Shown: piece after piece, positions 3,869 to 37,436 of the stretch
Numbering within the stretch: the stretch's first letter is position 1
Layout of the letters: each line of letters opens with the position of its first letter
Notes under the pieces: model-generated
Told to the model about the DNA's origin: nothing
The model's input: the letters and a program-made list of their open reading frames with translations, nothing else
Database searches by the model: none
Made by a program: the position numbers and the translations under genes
Source of the DNA: a virus
Length of the DNA: 37,436 nucleotides
Direction: 5' to 3' (one strand)
Virus record (IMG/VR): IMGVR_UViG_3300024520_000224
Span: 1-37,436 of that record

Positions 3869-4735
3869 GTGTCCCAGCAGATCACCGATGCATTTGTGCA
3901 GAATTACCGCGGGACTGTTATTCAGCTCGCGCAACAGAAAGGTTCGCGCCTGCGCGGTGCTGTCACCGTGCATCCCGACGTCACGGGGAAGACCGACTTC
4001 TTCGACCGGGTAGGTGCGACTACCGCCCAGGTCAAGACCACGCGGCACGGCGACACCCCGCTCATCGAGACCCCCCACTCGAGGCGCATGGCCAGCCTGG
4101 CCACCTACGAGTGGGCGGACCTCATCGACAAGGCGGATAAGGTCCGCACCCTCATCGATCCCGAGGGCGAGTACGCCAAGGCCGGCGGTTGGGCCATGGG
4201 GCGCTCGATGGACGATGTCCTCATCACCGCGCTGACCGGCACCGCCGCCACTGGCGAGACCGGATCGGGTTCGCAAGTTCTGCCTTCCGGCCAGAAAATC
4301 GCCGAGAGCTCCGTCGGTCTCACAATCGCCAAGCTCCGCGAGGCGAAGCGTCTGCTCGACGCCGCCGAGATCGACCCGAGCGACCCGAGGTTCTTCCTCG
4401 CGTCGGCCGTGCAGATCGATGACCTCCTGGCCACCACGGCCGTGACGTCGTCCGATTTCAACACGGTGAAGGCTCTCGTCCACGGCGAGGTCGATACGTT
4501 CCTCGGCTTTAAGTTCATCCGCACCCAGCGGCTGAACACCACGGCCACGAGCGTGCGCGGTTGCATCGCCTTCTCGAAGAGCTCCATCGGTCTCTCGGTC
4601 GGGATGGATGTCATCGCCCGAATCACCGAGCGCTCCGACAAGAGCTATTCCGTCCAGCCTTACATGGCCATGGACCTGGGCGCCGTCCGCGTCGAGGACG
4701 AGGGCGTAGTCGAGGTGTCCTGCCGCGAGTCCTAG
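3869..4735 (+). CDS. Major capsid protein
   Basis: A 288-residue HK97-fold type capsid protein, in the family often listed as Phage_capsid_2. The N-terminus SQQITDAFVQNYRGTVIQL matches the usual start of that family, and conserved blocks follow, such as RMASLATYEWADLIDKADK and the C-terminal YSVQPYMAMDLGAVRVED. I chose the GTG at 3869 because GGAGGG at 3856-3861 lies 7 bases before it. The in-frame ATG at 3854 would add five residues and would have that ribosome site inside its coding region. The 145-base gap upstream has short inverted repeats such as GGCGG/CCGCC but no clear terminator. Confidence 0.9.
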   Translation: MSQQITDAFVQNYRGTVIQLAQQKGSRLRGAVTVHPDVTGKTDFFDRVGATTAQVKTTRHGDTPLIETPHSRRMASLATYEWADLIDKADKVRTLIDPEGEYAKAGGWAMGRSMDDVLITALTGTAATGETGSGSQVLPSGQKIAESSVGLTIAKLREAKRLLDAAEIDPSDPRFFLASAVQIDDLLATTAVTSSDFNTVKALVHGEVDTFLGFKFIRTQRLNTTATSVRGCIAFSKSSIGLSVGMDVIARITERSDKSYSVQPYMAMDLGAVRVEDEGVVEVSCRES

Positions 4736-4788
4736 GACCGGGCCGGCTTAACGGAACACACAACATCATCCTCTAAGGAGAGAAACAA

Positions 4789-5280
4789 ATGACGGCTTTC
4801 ACCGGAACACCTTCCAGCTCTGTGCAACACGCCTTGCAGAGCGGCGGCACTGGCGGCAACGCCAATGTGTCGGACGTCGGAGCTCGTCTCCGAATCGCGT
4901 TTTTCGAGTACACCCACACCGCCACCGAGGGAGCGGGAACGGGCGCTGTGAATCTCGTGGTCCTGCCTTACGGCCGGATTCGGATTTACGCGGACCTCTC
5001 GCGCATCGTCACCTCGGCGATGGTCACCCTGGCCGATGTGCATCTCGGCTACCGGGCCTACACCCAGATCGACGGGACCGCTGTCGTGGAAGACGACAAC
5101 GCCTTTGGGGATAACGTCAACGGTGGCTCGGCCATCGACGAGGCGTTTTCGCTCCCGGCCGAGGGTTTCCTCGAGATGGATTCCCAGGGCGGCATCACGA
5201 TCTTCGCCACCATCGACACGGCGAACATCGAGGCCGACGACACCATCAAGGGGTGGGTGGCTTTCACTAACCAGGACTAG
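4789..5280 (+). CDS. Probable capsid cement/decoration protein
   Basis: A 163-residue beta-rich protein with a strong ribosome site (AAGGAGAG) and a position directly after the major capsid gene. In BPP-1 the capsid gene is paired with a jellyroll cement protein, Bbp16, and this gene occupies the equivalent place. The sequence has alternating hydrophobic strands (VNLVVLPYGRIRIYADLSRI) and many Gly/Thr/Asp turns, with no membrane segment or catalytic motif. The role is inferred from position, size and composition, not from a recognised motif. Other virion roles remain possible. Confidence 0.65.
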   Translation: MTAFTGTPSSSVQHALQSGGTGGNANVSDVGARLRIAFFEYTHTATEGAGTGAVNLVVLPYGRIRIYADLSRIVTSAMVTLADVHLGYRAYTQIDGTAVVEDDNAFGDNVNGGSAIDEAFSLPAEGFLEMDSQGGITIFATIDTANIEADDTIKGWVAFTNQD

Positions 5281-24741: not shown

Positions 24742-25212
24742 TCACTCCAAGTGACCGGCCGTTTCGAGTTTCGTTTTGCGCTCCGCGGCGCCTTCCTTCG
24801 TGAACCATTTCTCCCAGGCCAGGAGCCCGGCAACGTCTTTCTTCTCGCGGCCGTTGTTCAGCCACCTCAGGCCGTCGTAATAGTCGTCCGTGACCGTCTC
24901 TGCCTTCTTGCCGAACCAATCAAGATGGCCCCAGCACCTGACCGTCTCGAGCGGCGATGTCCCAGCGAGCGGGTTGCGCGATTGCTTTTGCTCGACCTCG
25001 CGCTCACTCCTACACCGATACCCAACGTGGAGGTCACGGTAGGTGCGCTCGGGGTGCGCCATGTGACAGGTGTCGCACGCGAGGTGAGGGTCACGTTCAA
25101 TCCATAGGTAACCACTCCGGTCGTTACCCTCGAGTACGAGCCGCTCAAAATTGAGATCACCCTGTCGGGAGGCTTGGTTGTACATCTCCACCAGATCGAT
25201 TGTTTCGTTCAT
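24742..25212 (-). CDS. Hypothetical early protein with CxxC motif
   Basis: A 156-residue protein. ACDTCHMAHPERTYRDLHVG holds Cys46 and Cys49, and Cys67 follows, possibly a partial metal site. RCWGHLDWFGKKAETVTDDY (about 91-110) is conserved-looking. AAGGAG precedes the ATG. The gene overlaps the upstream one by 56 bases. Position downstream of the ERF gene suggests an early replication or recombination role, but no enzyme family is recognised. A 71-base gap follows before the next gene. Confidence 0.7.
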   Translation of the reverse strand: MNETIDLVEMYNQASRQGDLNFERLVLEGNDRSGYLWIERDPHLACDTCHMAHPERTYRDLHVGYRCRSEREVEQKQSRNPLAGTSPLETVRCWGHLDWFGKKAETVTDDYYDGLRWLNNGREKKDVAGLLAWEKWFTKEGAAERKTKLETAGHLE

Positions 25213-25639
25213 CGTGATCTCCTTCCAATAAATCGGCGAAATATGAGCGGAGGGAGTCCCTCGTTACGGCTGGGTCATTTAGAATGCGATCCTCACAAAG
25301 CAGATAGGTGAGGGTTGAGCGGTTGCAGAGGGCCATCACGGTGCGCTCGTCGGCCCACGGCGCCACCTCGAACGCGCCAGAGGAGTTATCGAAGAACCGC
25401 CACACCATGGCCATGGCCAGTACGAGCCCGTAGTGATCGACCAGGGTGAAGAGGGCTTTCCTCTCATACATTTTGAACTGGTACTTGATCGGGCCCCACT
25501 TGGACTGATTGACCTCGCCGTACTTGGCCGCCCAGAACTTCTGGAGCTTCGAGACGTTCGCCCAGACAGCCCTCTCGCTGTCGCTCTGGGGGAGCTTCGC
25601 CCTGAGCTTGGCAAGTTGGAGTTGGGTGACCTGGCCCAT
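25157..25639 (-). CDS. Hypothetical protein next to ERF
   Basis: A 160-residue protein with a basic, Trp/Tyr-rich middle (QSKWGPIKYQFKMYERKALF) and a helical hydrophobic segment (YGLVLAMAMVWRFF) that is too polar overall for a clear membrane anchor. The C-terminus is Asp/Arg/Asn-rich. The ATG overlaps the stop of the ERF gene (TAATG), so the two products are probably made together and may work together. Family not recognised. Confidence 0.7.
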   Translation of the reverse strand: MGQVTQLQLAKLRAKLPQSDSERAVWANVSKLQKFWAAKYGEVNQSKWGPIKYQFKMYERKALFTLVDHYGLVLAMAMVWRFFDNSSGAFEVAPWADERTVMALCNRSTLTYLLCEDRILNDPAVTRDSLRSYFADLLEGDHDERNNRSGGDVQPSLPTG

Positions 25640-26358
25640 TACTTCGCCCCCGCCTTCTTGGGCGTACCCGTGGGCGTCATGGCCTCAAGTGCGGCCAATA
25701 GGGCGGCCTTGTTCTCACGGCGAAGGAATTTGGGGTCTTTGACATCGATCTCGACGCAAGCCTGATCGAGCTGATCAAGCGCATACCCCTTGTCGGCTAG
25801 GTAGGTCATGAGATTTTTGAATTCATCTTTAGTGAGGAGGCCGCCCCCAGACTCATCAGATTGAGTCTTCGCGGGGGCGGCTTTCGGGGTCTGCTTCGCC
25901 GGGCCAGGGTTGGCGTCCGGCTTGTGGTCAATATTGTCGCGCTCGGGATTGTTGTTCTGGGGCGTCTCGGCGTCACCCGTCACGAGATTGAAGGTCTCGA
26001 GCGTCGCGTATTTCTTCGCATATGAGTATGCCTTGCCGGGGCCCTTGTCCTGCGGATCGATTCCGTAGCCAAAGAACGCACACGTTACGCGGTCCTCGGG
26101 ATCGTCGATATTGATATAGCTCACCTGAAGATCGACCTCGGTGCGGTTGCCGTCCTGTCCGTGTTCGAGAACGTGATAGATGGCGTTGACGCCGTGCTTG
26201 ACGAGGAGGGGGTGGAGAGCCGCCGTGACGGCGTCGTGGCTGACGAAGGTGTACTGGTTGTTGACTCTCTTGTTCTCTTTCTGGACGTAGTCAAGGTCCG
26301 CCATGATGGCGTTTATGCGTTGGTGGATGTTCAGCTTCTTTTCCTTCTTCTCAGCCAT
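25639..26358 (-). CDS. ERF-family single-strand annealing protein
   Basis: A 239-residue recombination protein of the ERF superfamily. Family marks: an N-terminal helix (NIHQRINAIMADLDYVQKEN), YTFVSHDAVTAALHPLL, and the core YGIDPQDKGPGKAYSYAKKY (about 118-137) followed by a hydrophobic stretch ending TGD. A Pro/Ala/Lys linker and a small C-terminal domain follow. It anneals single strands, helping circularise or recombine phage DNA, and may act with the SSB at 28846. The ATG at 26358 has AAGGAAA upstream and is preferred to the longer frame from 26385. Confidence 0.92.
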   Translation of the reverse strand: MAEKKEKKLNIHQRINAIMADLDYVQKENKRVNNQYTFVSHDAVTAALHPLLVKHGVNAIYHVLEHGQDGNRTEVDLQVSYINIDDPEDRVTCAFFGYGIDPQDKGPGKAYSYAKKYATLETFNLVTGDAETPQNNNPERDNIDHKPDANPGPAKQTPKAAPAKTQSDESGGGLLTKDEFKNLMTYLADKGYALDQLDQACVEIDVKDPKFLRRENKAALLAALEAMTPTGTPKKAGAK

Positions 26359-26584
26359 TCGGATAGTTTCCTTTTCGGGCGGCAACGTATTCCTCGATGT
26401 CGTTGAGCCGGGCCTCGATAGCTTCGAGCCGACGATAAAGTTCGGACCCCTTACGCTTGCGGTCCATCATGTAGGTCTGGAGTTCCTTGACTCGCGCAAA
26501 CAACTCGGCCATCGTGCCGGGCTCTTTCGGCGAGGAGGGGGCTTTCTCGATCGTGTATTTCTTCCCGGCTATAGAATCAGCCAT
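26351..26584 (-). CDS. Small coiled-coil protein upstream of ERF
   Basis: A 77-residue basic and acidic helical protein. KELQTYMMDRKRKGSELYRR and LEAIEARLNDIEEY (about 33-68) form a coiled coil. It overlaps the ERF start by 8 bases and the upstream membrane gene by 16. No known family. Possible accessory to the annealing protein by position. Confidence 0.7.
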   Translation of the reverse strand: MADSIAGKKYTIEKAPSSPKEPGTMAELFARVKELQTYMMDRKRKGSELYRRLEAIEARLNDIEEYVAARKGNYPNG

Positions 26585-26736
26585 GCGTACACTCCCAGCT
26601 CGATGACGAGAATGGCCAAGCAGACGTCAGCGATCAGACCATCCCACCAGGAGTCTTCTTCTAAGTTATGGTCAACTAGATACTCAGTGCCGGCGGGGCT
26701 TTCATTGGCCACGGCAATTCTGATATGTCGTGTCAT
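26569..26736 (-). CDS. Tiny membrane protein, first gene after the leftward promoter
   Basis: A 55-residue protein starting MTRHIRIAVANESPAGTEYL with an acidic middle (EEDSWWDG) and one C-terminal membrane segment (LIADVCLAILVIELGVYAWL). The stop lies within the start of the coiled-coil gene. Only a weak GGGCG precedes the ATG. It is the first open frame after the AT-rich control region, so it should be expressed early. Function unknown. Confidence 0.6.
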   Translation of the reverse strand: MTRHIRIAVANESPAGTEYLVDHNLEEDSWWDGLIADVCLAILVIELGVYAWLIL

Positions 26737-26772
26737 GATATACGCCCATTAAATATAGGGTTTTCGCTTTTG

Positions 26773-26803
26773 ATTATAGTGACCATATTGAAATCCTTGT
26801 GAA
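26773..26803 (-). promoter_or_regulatory. Leftward sigma70-like promoter of the ERF operon
   Basis: On the minus strand a perfect -10 box TATAAT (26773-26778) is preceded by TTCACA (26798-26803) at a long 19-base spacing. The start would lie about 30 bases before the tiny membrane gene. The region 26737-26936 is far more AT-rich than the genes around it and holds no gene. The 11-mer CCTTGTGAAAT (plus strand) occurs at 26795 over the -35 box and again at 26927, so it may be a regulator site. Confidence 0.45.
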
Positions 26804-26936
26804 ATAGGTTGCACATTCGTTATCGATTCGTTGTATATTTGCTATCTTTCGCCACTATATGTTGGGGTTAATCAAACACTTGAGGACACTACATCGTAGA
26901 AGAAGTGATAATATATGATATGTCCCCCTTGTGAAA

Positions 26937-27167
26937 TTATTTATCTAATGGATACCTTTTCCTTGGATACAGCACTTTCGCTTTCGCTCTTCTTTCGTCC
27001 AGCATTTTAATCATTGTCTGGTCCGGTGTCCAGAGTTTTATGGGCTCAACTTGCAGGGCGTAGGCGAGGCGGAAGAGGGTGATGGCGGCCGGGTTCTCGG
27101 TGCCGTTCTCGAGCGTGGAGATAACAGTGGGTCCATTTCTACCATAGGGAATGCACGCGGTCAACAA
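26937..27167 (-). CDS. XRE-like regulator with shortened N-terminus
   Basis: A 76-residue frame whose TVISTLENGTENPAAITLFR is the second half of an XRE-type helix-turn-helix, followed by LAYALQVEPIKLW. Helix 1 and most of helix 2 are missing. The best start is TTG at 27167 or 27164, with no ribosome site, and a stop lies a few codons upstream. The basic tail ends KAKVLYPRKRYPLDK. It may be a leaderless gene, a truncated remnant of a repressor, or use a start I cannot see. It reads out of the operator array at 27181-27242, which suggests autoregulation. Confidence 0.55.
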   Translation of the reverse strand: MLTACIPYGRNGPTVISTLENGTENPAAITLFRLAYALQVEPIKLWTPDQTMIKMLDERRAKAKVLYPRKRYPLDK

Positions 27168-27172
27168 AATAA

Positions 27173-27200
27173 TGTATATAAATTGCTAATATACGTTCAA
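27173..27200 (-). promoter_or_regulatory. Leftward promoter overlapping operator 1
   Basis: Minus-strand TTGAAC (27195-27200), a 16-base spacer and TATACA (27173-27178) make a sigma70-like promoter. The -35 box is the centre of the inverted repeat at 27189-27206, so a bound repressor would block it. The second repeat copy holds the same TTGAAC at 27226-27231 with AT-rich -10 candidates (TATATA at 18 bases), giving possible tandem promoters. Initiation would fall almost on the TTG start of the XRE-like gene. Confidence 0.5.
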
Positions 27201-27242
27201 GTATATATCAGAATTGCTAATATACGTTCAAGTATATATCAG
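27181..27242 (+). repeat. Two tandem 31-bp repeats, each with an 18-bp inverted-repeat operator
   Basis: The 31-base unit at 27181-27211 is repeated exactly at 27212-27242. Each holds ATATACGTTCAAGTATAT (27189-27206 and 27220-27237): 6-bp arms ATATAC/GTATAT around GTTCAA. The centres are 31 bp apart, close to three helical turns, so proteins bound at both would face the same side of DNA. A further GTATAT half-type sequence lies at 27174. This is what a cooperative repressor operator looks like. Confidence 0.85.
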
Positions 27243-27282
27243 AATTGTACTATTGGCATATATGGGTATTATTAATAGAACC

Positions 27283-27325
27283 AAAAAACCCCCACCCCAT
27301 CAGATCGCGGGGCAGGGGGTGGGGG
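27283..27325 (-). terminator. Rho-independent terminator of the leftward XRE operon
   Basis: Read on the minus strand, CCCCCACCCC pairs with GGGGTGGGGG in a perfect 10-bp stem, directly followed by TTTTTT. It lies just after the stop of the gene at 27328-27636 and would separate that operon from the operator and promoter array downstream. No T-run follows on the plus strand, so it acts leftward only. Confidence 0.9.
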
Positions 27326-27327
27326 CG

Positions 27328-27636
27328 TTACAGGTTGGATTCTGCGAGCGCTTCCTTGGCCTGTTCGATGGCCTTAGTGGAACGGGTGTGTGCGAGGAGA
27401 TTGGTCAGCGCGTCGTGGAGACGGCCGGCGGATGCGAGAAGTTTAGCGGTCTCCCAGGCTTCCTCGCCCGTGCCATTTACCTGGGCGATCAGGCCGCGAG
27501 GGGAGACGTTATCGATCACGACGTATGGACAGAGCTCTCTCGGCTCCAGCGTCGAAAGGTCTACGGCTTTCCATATCCCCGGCCGGGTGTACAGATCGGG
27601 TGGCCGGGGGAAATTAGGGTTAGTCTGTTTTGCCAT
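27328..27636 (-). CDS. Hypothetical protein ending the XRE operon
   Basis: A 102-residue protein starting MAKQTNPNFPRPPDLYTRPG, with a beta-like section (CPYVVIDNVSPRGLIAQVNG) and a helical C-terminal half rich in Ala and Leu. No motif recognised. The start lies 17 bases inside the XRE gene, behind GGGAA. It ends three bases before the strong leftward terminator. Confidence 0.7.
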   Translation of the reverse strand: MAKQTNPNFPRPPDLYTRPGIWKAVDLSTLEPRELCPYVVIDNVSPRGLIAQVNGTGEEAWETAKLLASAGRLHDALTNLLAHTRSTKAIEQAKEALAESNL

Positions 27637-27820
27637 TTTCCCAGAGCTCCTTTATGAGGCGGTCGGAAGAGCATCCGAGAGGGGGCGCCAGCTTGAGAAT
27701 GGTGTCGATTGTTGGAAATTGGCTACCCTTCTCGATCCGAATTATTGTCCCTCTTGTTATACCACTCTGATCGGCCAATTCAACCTGGGAGAGGCCGGCT
27801 TCCTCCCTTAATTTTTTCAT
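27620..27820 (-). CDS. XRE-family helix-turn-helix regulator
   Basis: A 66-residue complete XRE/Cro-type DNA-binding protein: REEAGLSQVELADQSGITRG (helices 1-3), TIIRIEKGSQFPTIDTILKL, then a short helix and a charged end. GGAGGTGG precedes the ATG. At this size it has no extra sensing or cleavage domain, so it resembles Cro-like or small plasmid-type regulators more than LexA-like repressors. Candidate targets are the inverted repeats at 27189-27237 and 28571-28589. Its ATG overlaps the previous stop (ATGA). Confidence 0.9.
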   Translation of the reverse strand: MKKLREEAGLSQVELADQSGITRGTIIRIEKGSQFPTIDTILKLAPPLGCSSDRLIKELWENGKTD

Positions 27821-28502: not shown

Positions 28503-28570
28503 TACGATTCCTCCTGGTTGATGTAGCGTCCTCGGTACATAATCTCTCACAATACGTCCGAATCCACAAG

Positions 28571-28589
28571 AATAAAGTACACTTTTATT
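28571..28589 (+). promoter_or_regulatory. Candidate operator in the divergent 28.5-28.6 kb control region
   Basis: AATAAAGTACACTTTTATT is an imperfect inverted repeat (AATAAAGT against AATAAAAGT on the other strand) that touches the -35 box of the rightward promoter. A further half-site ACTTTA lies at 28602-28607 in the promoter spacer. The leftward XRE operon starts on the other side, so a small XRE protein could control both directions here. Confidence 0.45.
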
Positions 28590-28617
28590 GCGGATGATGA
28601 CACTTTACCTGTATAAT
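28588..28617 (+). promoter_or_regulatory. Rightward promoter of the SSB operon
   Basis: TTGCGG (28588-28593), an 18-base spacer and a perfect TATAAT (28612-28617). TG lies directly before the -10 box. The expected start is near 28624, about 36 bases before the GTG at 28661, or almost on the ATG at 28628. It is the best sigma70-like promoter I see on the plus strand. Confidence 0.7.
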
Positions 28618-28660
28618 CGCTCAAATCATGTACTTACGGGTACCAAAAAGGAAAAAATAT

Positions 28661-36359: not shown

Positions 36360-37436
36360 CTACGTCATCAAATCCACCCAGGTCCGCCCGGGCGTCTACT
36401 ACTACATCTTCCCGACCTACGCGCAGGGCAAGAAAGTTATTTGGCAGGGCAAAGACAAATCGGGAATGAGTGTGCTCGACCATATCCCGAAGGAATTACT
36501 CCTCAAGAAAAACGAGCAGGAGATGTGGGTTGAAATCGATTGCCCGAATTTTCCCGGTAAGACCTCCCTCGTTCAGATCGTTGGCTCAGACCGCATGGAC
36601 TCTCTTGTCGGCACGAATCCGGTCGGGGCGGTGTACTCCGAGTACGCTATTCAGAATCCTTTGGCCCGTGAGCTCCTGGCGCCAATCTTTGATGAGAACA
36701 AGGGCTGGGAAATTTACATCTACACGCCACGCGGTCACAACCACGGATACGACCTCTACCAGGCGGCGGGTGAACAGCCGGATGTCTGGTTCCGCGAGCG
36801 CCTCACCATCGATGACACCTACGAGGTCGTTGACGGCAAGCGCATACCAATCATTACCGAGGACTACGTCCATCAGCGTCTCAAAGAAGGTATGGATGAG
36901 AACCTTGCCCAGCAAGAATATTGGTGTTCCTTCGACGGCGCGATGCAAGGCTCCTTCTATGCGGAAGCATTTAAGAAGCTCGACGCGGAGAGCCGCGTAA
37001 GGAACATCGCCTGGGAGCCGAGCCTCCCGGTGCATACGGCGTGGGACTTGGGCGTCGGCGATGCTACCGGGATTTGGTTCCTTCAAATCGCCGGCAACGA
37101 GATTCGCTGGATCGATTATTACGAAGCGCAGGGCGAGGGGCTGACGCATTACATCAAAAAGCTCCACGAGAAACCCTATACATACGGAATGCATTTTGCC
37201 CCGCACGACATCAAGGTTCGGGAGTTTACGAGTGGAAAGAGTCGGCTTGAGATTGCGCGAAACATGGGCATCCGTTTCCGCGTCGTCACTAAACTGGCTG
37301 TGGAGGAAGGTATCGATGCTATGCGTCGCATTCTTCCTCGCTCGTACTTTGACGAGAGAAAGTGCCGCAAAGGTATTCAAGCGCTAAGAGAATATCGCAA
37401 GGATTACGACGAGAAGCGCCGCGAGTTCAAGAAGGC
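36226..37436 (+). CDS. Terminase large subunit, N-terminal part (continues at position 2)
   Basis: The packaging motor ATPase/nuclease. Walker A is HRRAGKDKT (34-42) in the adenine-binding start KFQPRAYQLNIW, Walker B is VGAVYSEYA (133-141, Glu139 catalytic), and the coupling motif is YIYTPRG (164-170). The nuclease part has TAWDLGVGDATGIWF (271-285, Asp274) and HFAPHDIKVRE (323-333, Asp328). The ATG at 36226 has GGGGGA upstream. It was cut by the contig end; the missing part is at 2-343. Full length about 464 residues, close to related podophage terminases. Confidence 0.95.
   Translation, partial: MAVVVPHKFQPRAYQLNIWQAMDSGYRKAIGLWHRRAGKDKTTFNYVIKSTQVRPGVYYYIFPTYAQGKKVIWQGKDKSGMSVLDHIPKELLLKKNEQEMWVEIDCPNFPGKTSLVQIVGSDRMDSLVGTNPVGAVYSEYAIQNPLARELLAPIFDENKGWEIYIYTPRGHNHGYDLYQAAGEQPDVWFRERLTIDDTYEVVDGKRIPIITEDYVHQRLKEGMDENLAQQEYWCSFDGAMQGSFYAEAFKKLDAESRVRNIAWEPSLPVHTAWDLGVGDATGIWFLQIAGNEIRWIDYYEAQGEGLTHYIKKLHEKPYTYGMHFAPHDIKVREFTSGKSRLEIARNMGIRFRVVTKLAVEEGIDAMRRILPRSYFDERKCRKGIQALREYRKDYDEKRREFKK
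37278..37436. repeat. Terminal direct repeat, right copy
   Basis: Right copy of the 159-base repeat at 1-159. Position 37404 is T where the left copy has G (127), changing Glu to Asp in the terminase. The unit circle would be 37,277 bp. Confidence 0.95.

Follow-up and report, generated by a model that had tools for sequence, protein, structure and literature searches.

The OR and OL operators of lambdoid phages are groups of dyads in an early control region near a small HTH regulator. Their sequences vary from one operator to the next, and they lie between divergent repressor genes. The operators of HipB in hipBA are another case. There are four sites of the form TATCCN8GGATA, and they are bound cooperatively (PMC3920265). 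Three homologous operators are also described for phage phi11 (PMC3991615). Short tandem duplications in phage DNA are a different kind of precedent. These are exact head-to-tail copies that share a few bases at the border, and an example is the 62-bp duplication at 4687-4811 of the viral contig L059.

The locus considered here can be compared with each of these. It lies in a viral sequence of 37,436 nucleotides, IMG/VR record IMGVR_UViG_3300024520_000224, the whole of which is called the window below. The original prediction put two exact 31-bp copies at 27173-27242. Both copies are there, but the extent was slightly off (Table 1). The unit AATTGCTAATATACGTTCAAGTATATATCAG occurs as two exact head-to-tail copies followed by a third AATTG, and the identity at period 31 is 36/36 bp. 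TRF reports 2.2 copies with a 100% match, its top score in the window. Among all other repeats in the window with copies no more than 200 bp apart, the longest has 14 bp. The 31-bp direct repeat is far above chance, and exact tandem duplications of such quality are rare, with few in 835 kb of other viral loci. The one in L059, whose contig bears a capsid gene, is exact as well.

Table 1. Features in and around the repeat, in window positions
Feature	Position	Strand	Remark
Tandem direct repeat, unit AATTGCTAATATACGTTCAAGTATATATCAG, 2.16 copies	27181..27247	.	36-bp exact identity at period 31
Imperfect dyad ATATAC-GTTCAA-GTATAT, copy 1	27189..27206	.	chance-level symmetry
Imperfect dyad ATATAC-GTTCAA-GTATAT, copy 2	27220..27237	.	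chance-level symmetry
Weak -35-like hexamer TTGAAC (4/6), copy 2	27226..27231	-	8/12 with best -10
Intrinsic-terminator-like hairpin with T tract	27289..27318	-	ends leftward gene group 28550-27328
Intact 66-aa XRE/Cro-type HTH protein	27620..27820	-	HTH_3 positions 1-54 of 55
Apparent N-terminally truncated XRE remnant	26937..27167	-	HTH_3 positions 23-52 only, without Shine-Dalgarno
ERF-type single-strand annealing protein, leftward operon	25639..26385	-	

Like the lambdoid operators, the copies are dyads that lie close to a small HTH regulator within the early control region of a phage. Unlike them, the copies here are identical, no S24-type repressor or integrase is matched, and the neighbouring HTH gene appears to be a truncated remnant. 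With HipB and hipBA the locus shares a Cro-type HTH protein, an AT-rich dyad, short half-sites and several sites in what would be one promoter (PMC3920265). The differences are that hipBA has four sites with binding shown, against two identical putative sites here, and that the neighbours scanned include no recognised partner toxin gene. Like other short phage tandem duplications this one is exact, head to tail and bordered by a few shared bases. It differs in that its unit happens to hold an AT-rich dyad.

Each copy of the repeat carries the 18-mer ATATACGTTCAAGTATAT, in which ATATAC and GTATAT form a 6-bp inverted repeat around GTTCAA, with 7/9 symmetric pairs. The strength of this dyad was judged against dinucleotide shuffles of a single-copy version of the 100-bp region. 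A dyad as good occurs in 44% of shuffles by the 7/9 pairs, in 60% by a perfect 6-bp arm and in 31% by both. Of 1,481 segments of real DNA, each 100 bp long with 20-30% GC and drawn from other viral loci, 26% reach the first criterion, 45% the second and 17% both, and the 6-6-6 geometry is found in 7%. The symmetry is thus not beyond chance, since 17-60% of comparable sequences hold a dyad as good. The two dyads must also be counted once, because both copies stem from one duplication. There is no other site within 3 mismatches of ATATACGTTCAAGTATAT in the window, and ATATACN6GTATAT within 2 mismatches finds the same two places only in the whole genome. In particular, the dyad is absent from the divergent intergenic stretch at 28551-28627, which precedes the gene group containing the intact XRE gene.

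It had also been proposed that TTGAAC -35 boxes are the centres of the operators. TTGAAC agrees with the consensus TTGACA at 4/6 positions. In copy 1 (27200-27195) the best -10 partners of the box are TATACA at 16 bp and TACATT at 18 bp, and in copy 2 the best is TATATA at 18 bp. All of these pairs reach 8/12 in total, and a leftward match of at least 8/12 is present in 90% of shuffles. A consensus scan at 9/12 does not list TTGAAC; it gives a different leftward candidate, ATGCCA-17-TATACT at 27259-27231. The possible overlap of operator and -35 box is no better than chance and has no statistical support. A distance of 31 bp is 2.95 helical turns at 10.5 bp per turn, close to three turns. This is a single value, and the prior for falling within one base of whole turns is about 30%. 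A designed cooperative pair is not supported by these results: dyad, boxes and spacing are each at chance level, and the copies are not independent.

The 100 bp that hold the repeat are the AT-richest of the genome, with 24% GC against 58% overall. They are non-coding, lie just past a leftward terminator and are upstream of the leftward early region. The terminator-like hairpin (27318-27289) is strong and divides two leftward gene groups. After it the leftward order is the repeats, the ORF at 26937-27167, more AT-rich DNA, two ORFs at 26569-26736 and 26351-26584, and ERF. The segments 26911-27010 and 26751-26850 are likewise among the AT-richest stretches. The repeats had been placed before a shortened XRE gene and the ERF operon. 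They are indeed upstream of this early region, but 445 bp separate them from the first gene of the ERF operon, which has candidate promoters of its own, with a promoter-like match TTCACA-16-TATTAT at 26935-26908 in between.

Both XRE proteins had been put forward as binders of the repeats, and one of them is a plausible candidate. The intact protein matches HTH_3 with E=3e-15 (domain at 27659-27820), and its gene is about 370 bp from the repeats. It has relatives in Bacillus phages at 47-49% identity and, among solved structures, HigA, HipB(Lp), C.BclI and CylR2; a comparison with viral contigs gave one distant match. By its sequence it is the only plausible repressor encoded nearby and a candidate binder of the repeats. 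The other protein is a poor candidate because its HTH is truncated at the N-terminus and it lacks a ribosome-binding site. Its HTH_3 match is below the curated cut-off, with helix 1 and most of helix 2 missing. Its ORF starts at TTG with no Shine-Dalgarno, unlike most other genes of the region. The N-terminal half was sought in other frames and none was found, and the truncated protein has no relatives in phages, genomes or viral contigs. It looks most simply like a remnant. AlphaFold models built for both proteins from single sequences were not good enough to use; even the clear HTH did not come out folded as one.

The genome is of podovirus type. Its head-tail connector is 35-41% identical to Pelagibacter phage proteins, its capsid protein is at most 63% identical to IMG/VR contigs, and its ERF gene is 47-60% identical to scattered viral contigs. 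Positions 1-159 and 37278-37436, at the two ends of the window, repeat each other directly over 159 bp with a single mismatch (99.4% identity). Given this terminal repeat, the genome is probably complete with redundant ends. No match to the tyrosine integrase, serine recombinase or S24 repressor families was found in it, despite the HTH_3 gene, so a lambda-like lysogeny switch is not indicated. Rfam and tRNA searches returned nothing.

It was suggested that the dyad be sought in relatives. None carries it, but this counts little since the searches turned up no close relative of the control region. The ERF and capsid loci of relatives have no other control-region genes in common with this genome. 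The control region has no blastn match in phage records, and the neighbouring genes 27328-27636 and 25157-25639 have no relatives in viral contigs. The exact dyad has three matches in viral contigs. These contigs are unrelated, and in each the match sits at the same position of one coding gene. Two dyads at 26-36 bp spacing have two matches, both within long reading frames. All of these were rejected. The pattern matches inspected lie in coding sequence, and there is no intergenic counterpart among them. The 23-bp core of the repeat is found in none of 84,980 species genomes. A tandem array near ERF in the contig L006 (1658-1737) resembled an operator array. It is a 24-bp imperfect array with an internal dyad, but it lies within a 264-aa minus-strand ORF upstream of ERF and was rejected as coding.

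We argue that the simplest explanation is a recent 31-bp slippage duplication within AT-rich promoter DNA at the head of this podovirus-type phage's leftward early region, and we give this a probability of about 55%. The structure is AATTG-N26-AATTG-N26-AATTG, with the two 26-bp blocks identical. Slippage between two AATTG microhomologies (5 bp) would duplicate 31 bp, and the dyad and the -35-like hexamer would be carried along inside the duplicated piece. Exact copies and extra identity at the border are the marks of such an event, and both are present here. Identity extends 5 bp past the 31-bp unit, to 36 bp, and given the local composition an overhang of this length has P of about 0.014. 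A single duplication would explain the paired "operators", the paired "-35 boxes" and the spacing together, and dyad, hexamer and spacing are singly what chance would give. We infer a slippage origin and promoter activity of the stretch, and see no need for a two-operator function. Some points count against this explanation. Tandem duplications this exact are rare in other viral loci, and the AT-richest spot after a terminator, with an HTH gene about 370 bp off, is where operators are expected. Slippage could also give rise to functional tandem operators, so this origin does not exclude such a use.

One can imagine a scenario where a dimer of the 66-aa XRE protein sits on each ATATAC-N6-GTATAT, so that two dimers, about three turns apart on the same side of the DNA, repress a local leftward transcript. 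We regard this as possible but doubtful. An intact HTH_3 protein, putatively the cognate, is encoded nearby, the site is AT-rich, non-coding and past a terminator, the dyad in broad outline resembles Cro-type operators such as that of HipB, and 31 bp is close to three turns. Two dyads of the same sequence do stand in the control region, though by way of one duplication. Against this, the dyad is at chance level for such DNA, it has no other site in the genome including the 5' end of the XRE gene's own group, no relative carries it, the -35 claim comes down to a 4/6 hexamer, and the lack of matches to S24 repressor or integrase families gives no hint of a lysogeny switch. A bolder version is a minimal two-site cooperative switch. 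A single Cro-sized XRE protein, bound to the two identical dyads three turns apart, would control the leftward ERF recombination region with no lysogeny repressor, a second XRE gene having been lost. This we consider unlikely. The broken end of the apparently truncated XRE gene coincides with the start of the AT-rich stretch, like a recombination junction. One could then read the locus as a scar, where an AT-rich segment was joined into the middle of this XRE gene and replaced its 5' part. The HTH does lack its first 22 profile positions exactly where GC drops, and it has neither a ribosome-binding site nor an N-terminal half in another frame. However, no intact relative was found to show the original sequence and the codon statistics are uninformative for genes this short, and we think a scar very improbable. 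The least probable reading is that the repeats are iterons of a replication origin, where an initiator would bind in an AT-rich unwinding element close to the genes for SSB and ERF. The lowest GC of the genome, a direct repeat close to these genes and the lack of a recognised replicase among the ORFs checked would all suit an origin. Yet an iteron-type origin has several repeats, DnaA boxes and an initiator gene, and here there are two copies only, DnaA-box-like matches occur in the number expected by chance for the genome, no initiator protein was recognised and the cumulative GC skew has no turning point at the repeats.

The repeat is real and of an ordinary kind, a short tandem duplication within a phage's control region, and reading it as operators is plausible but unsupported. 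To our knowledge early control in this podovirus group has been little studied. If the copies do serve as operators, they would add a further case of tandem Cro-type operators, from this group. If they are instead a product of slippage, the locus would illustrate how duplicated AT-rich DNA can mimic paired operators and promoter boxes without selection for either.
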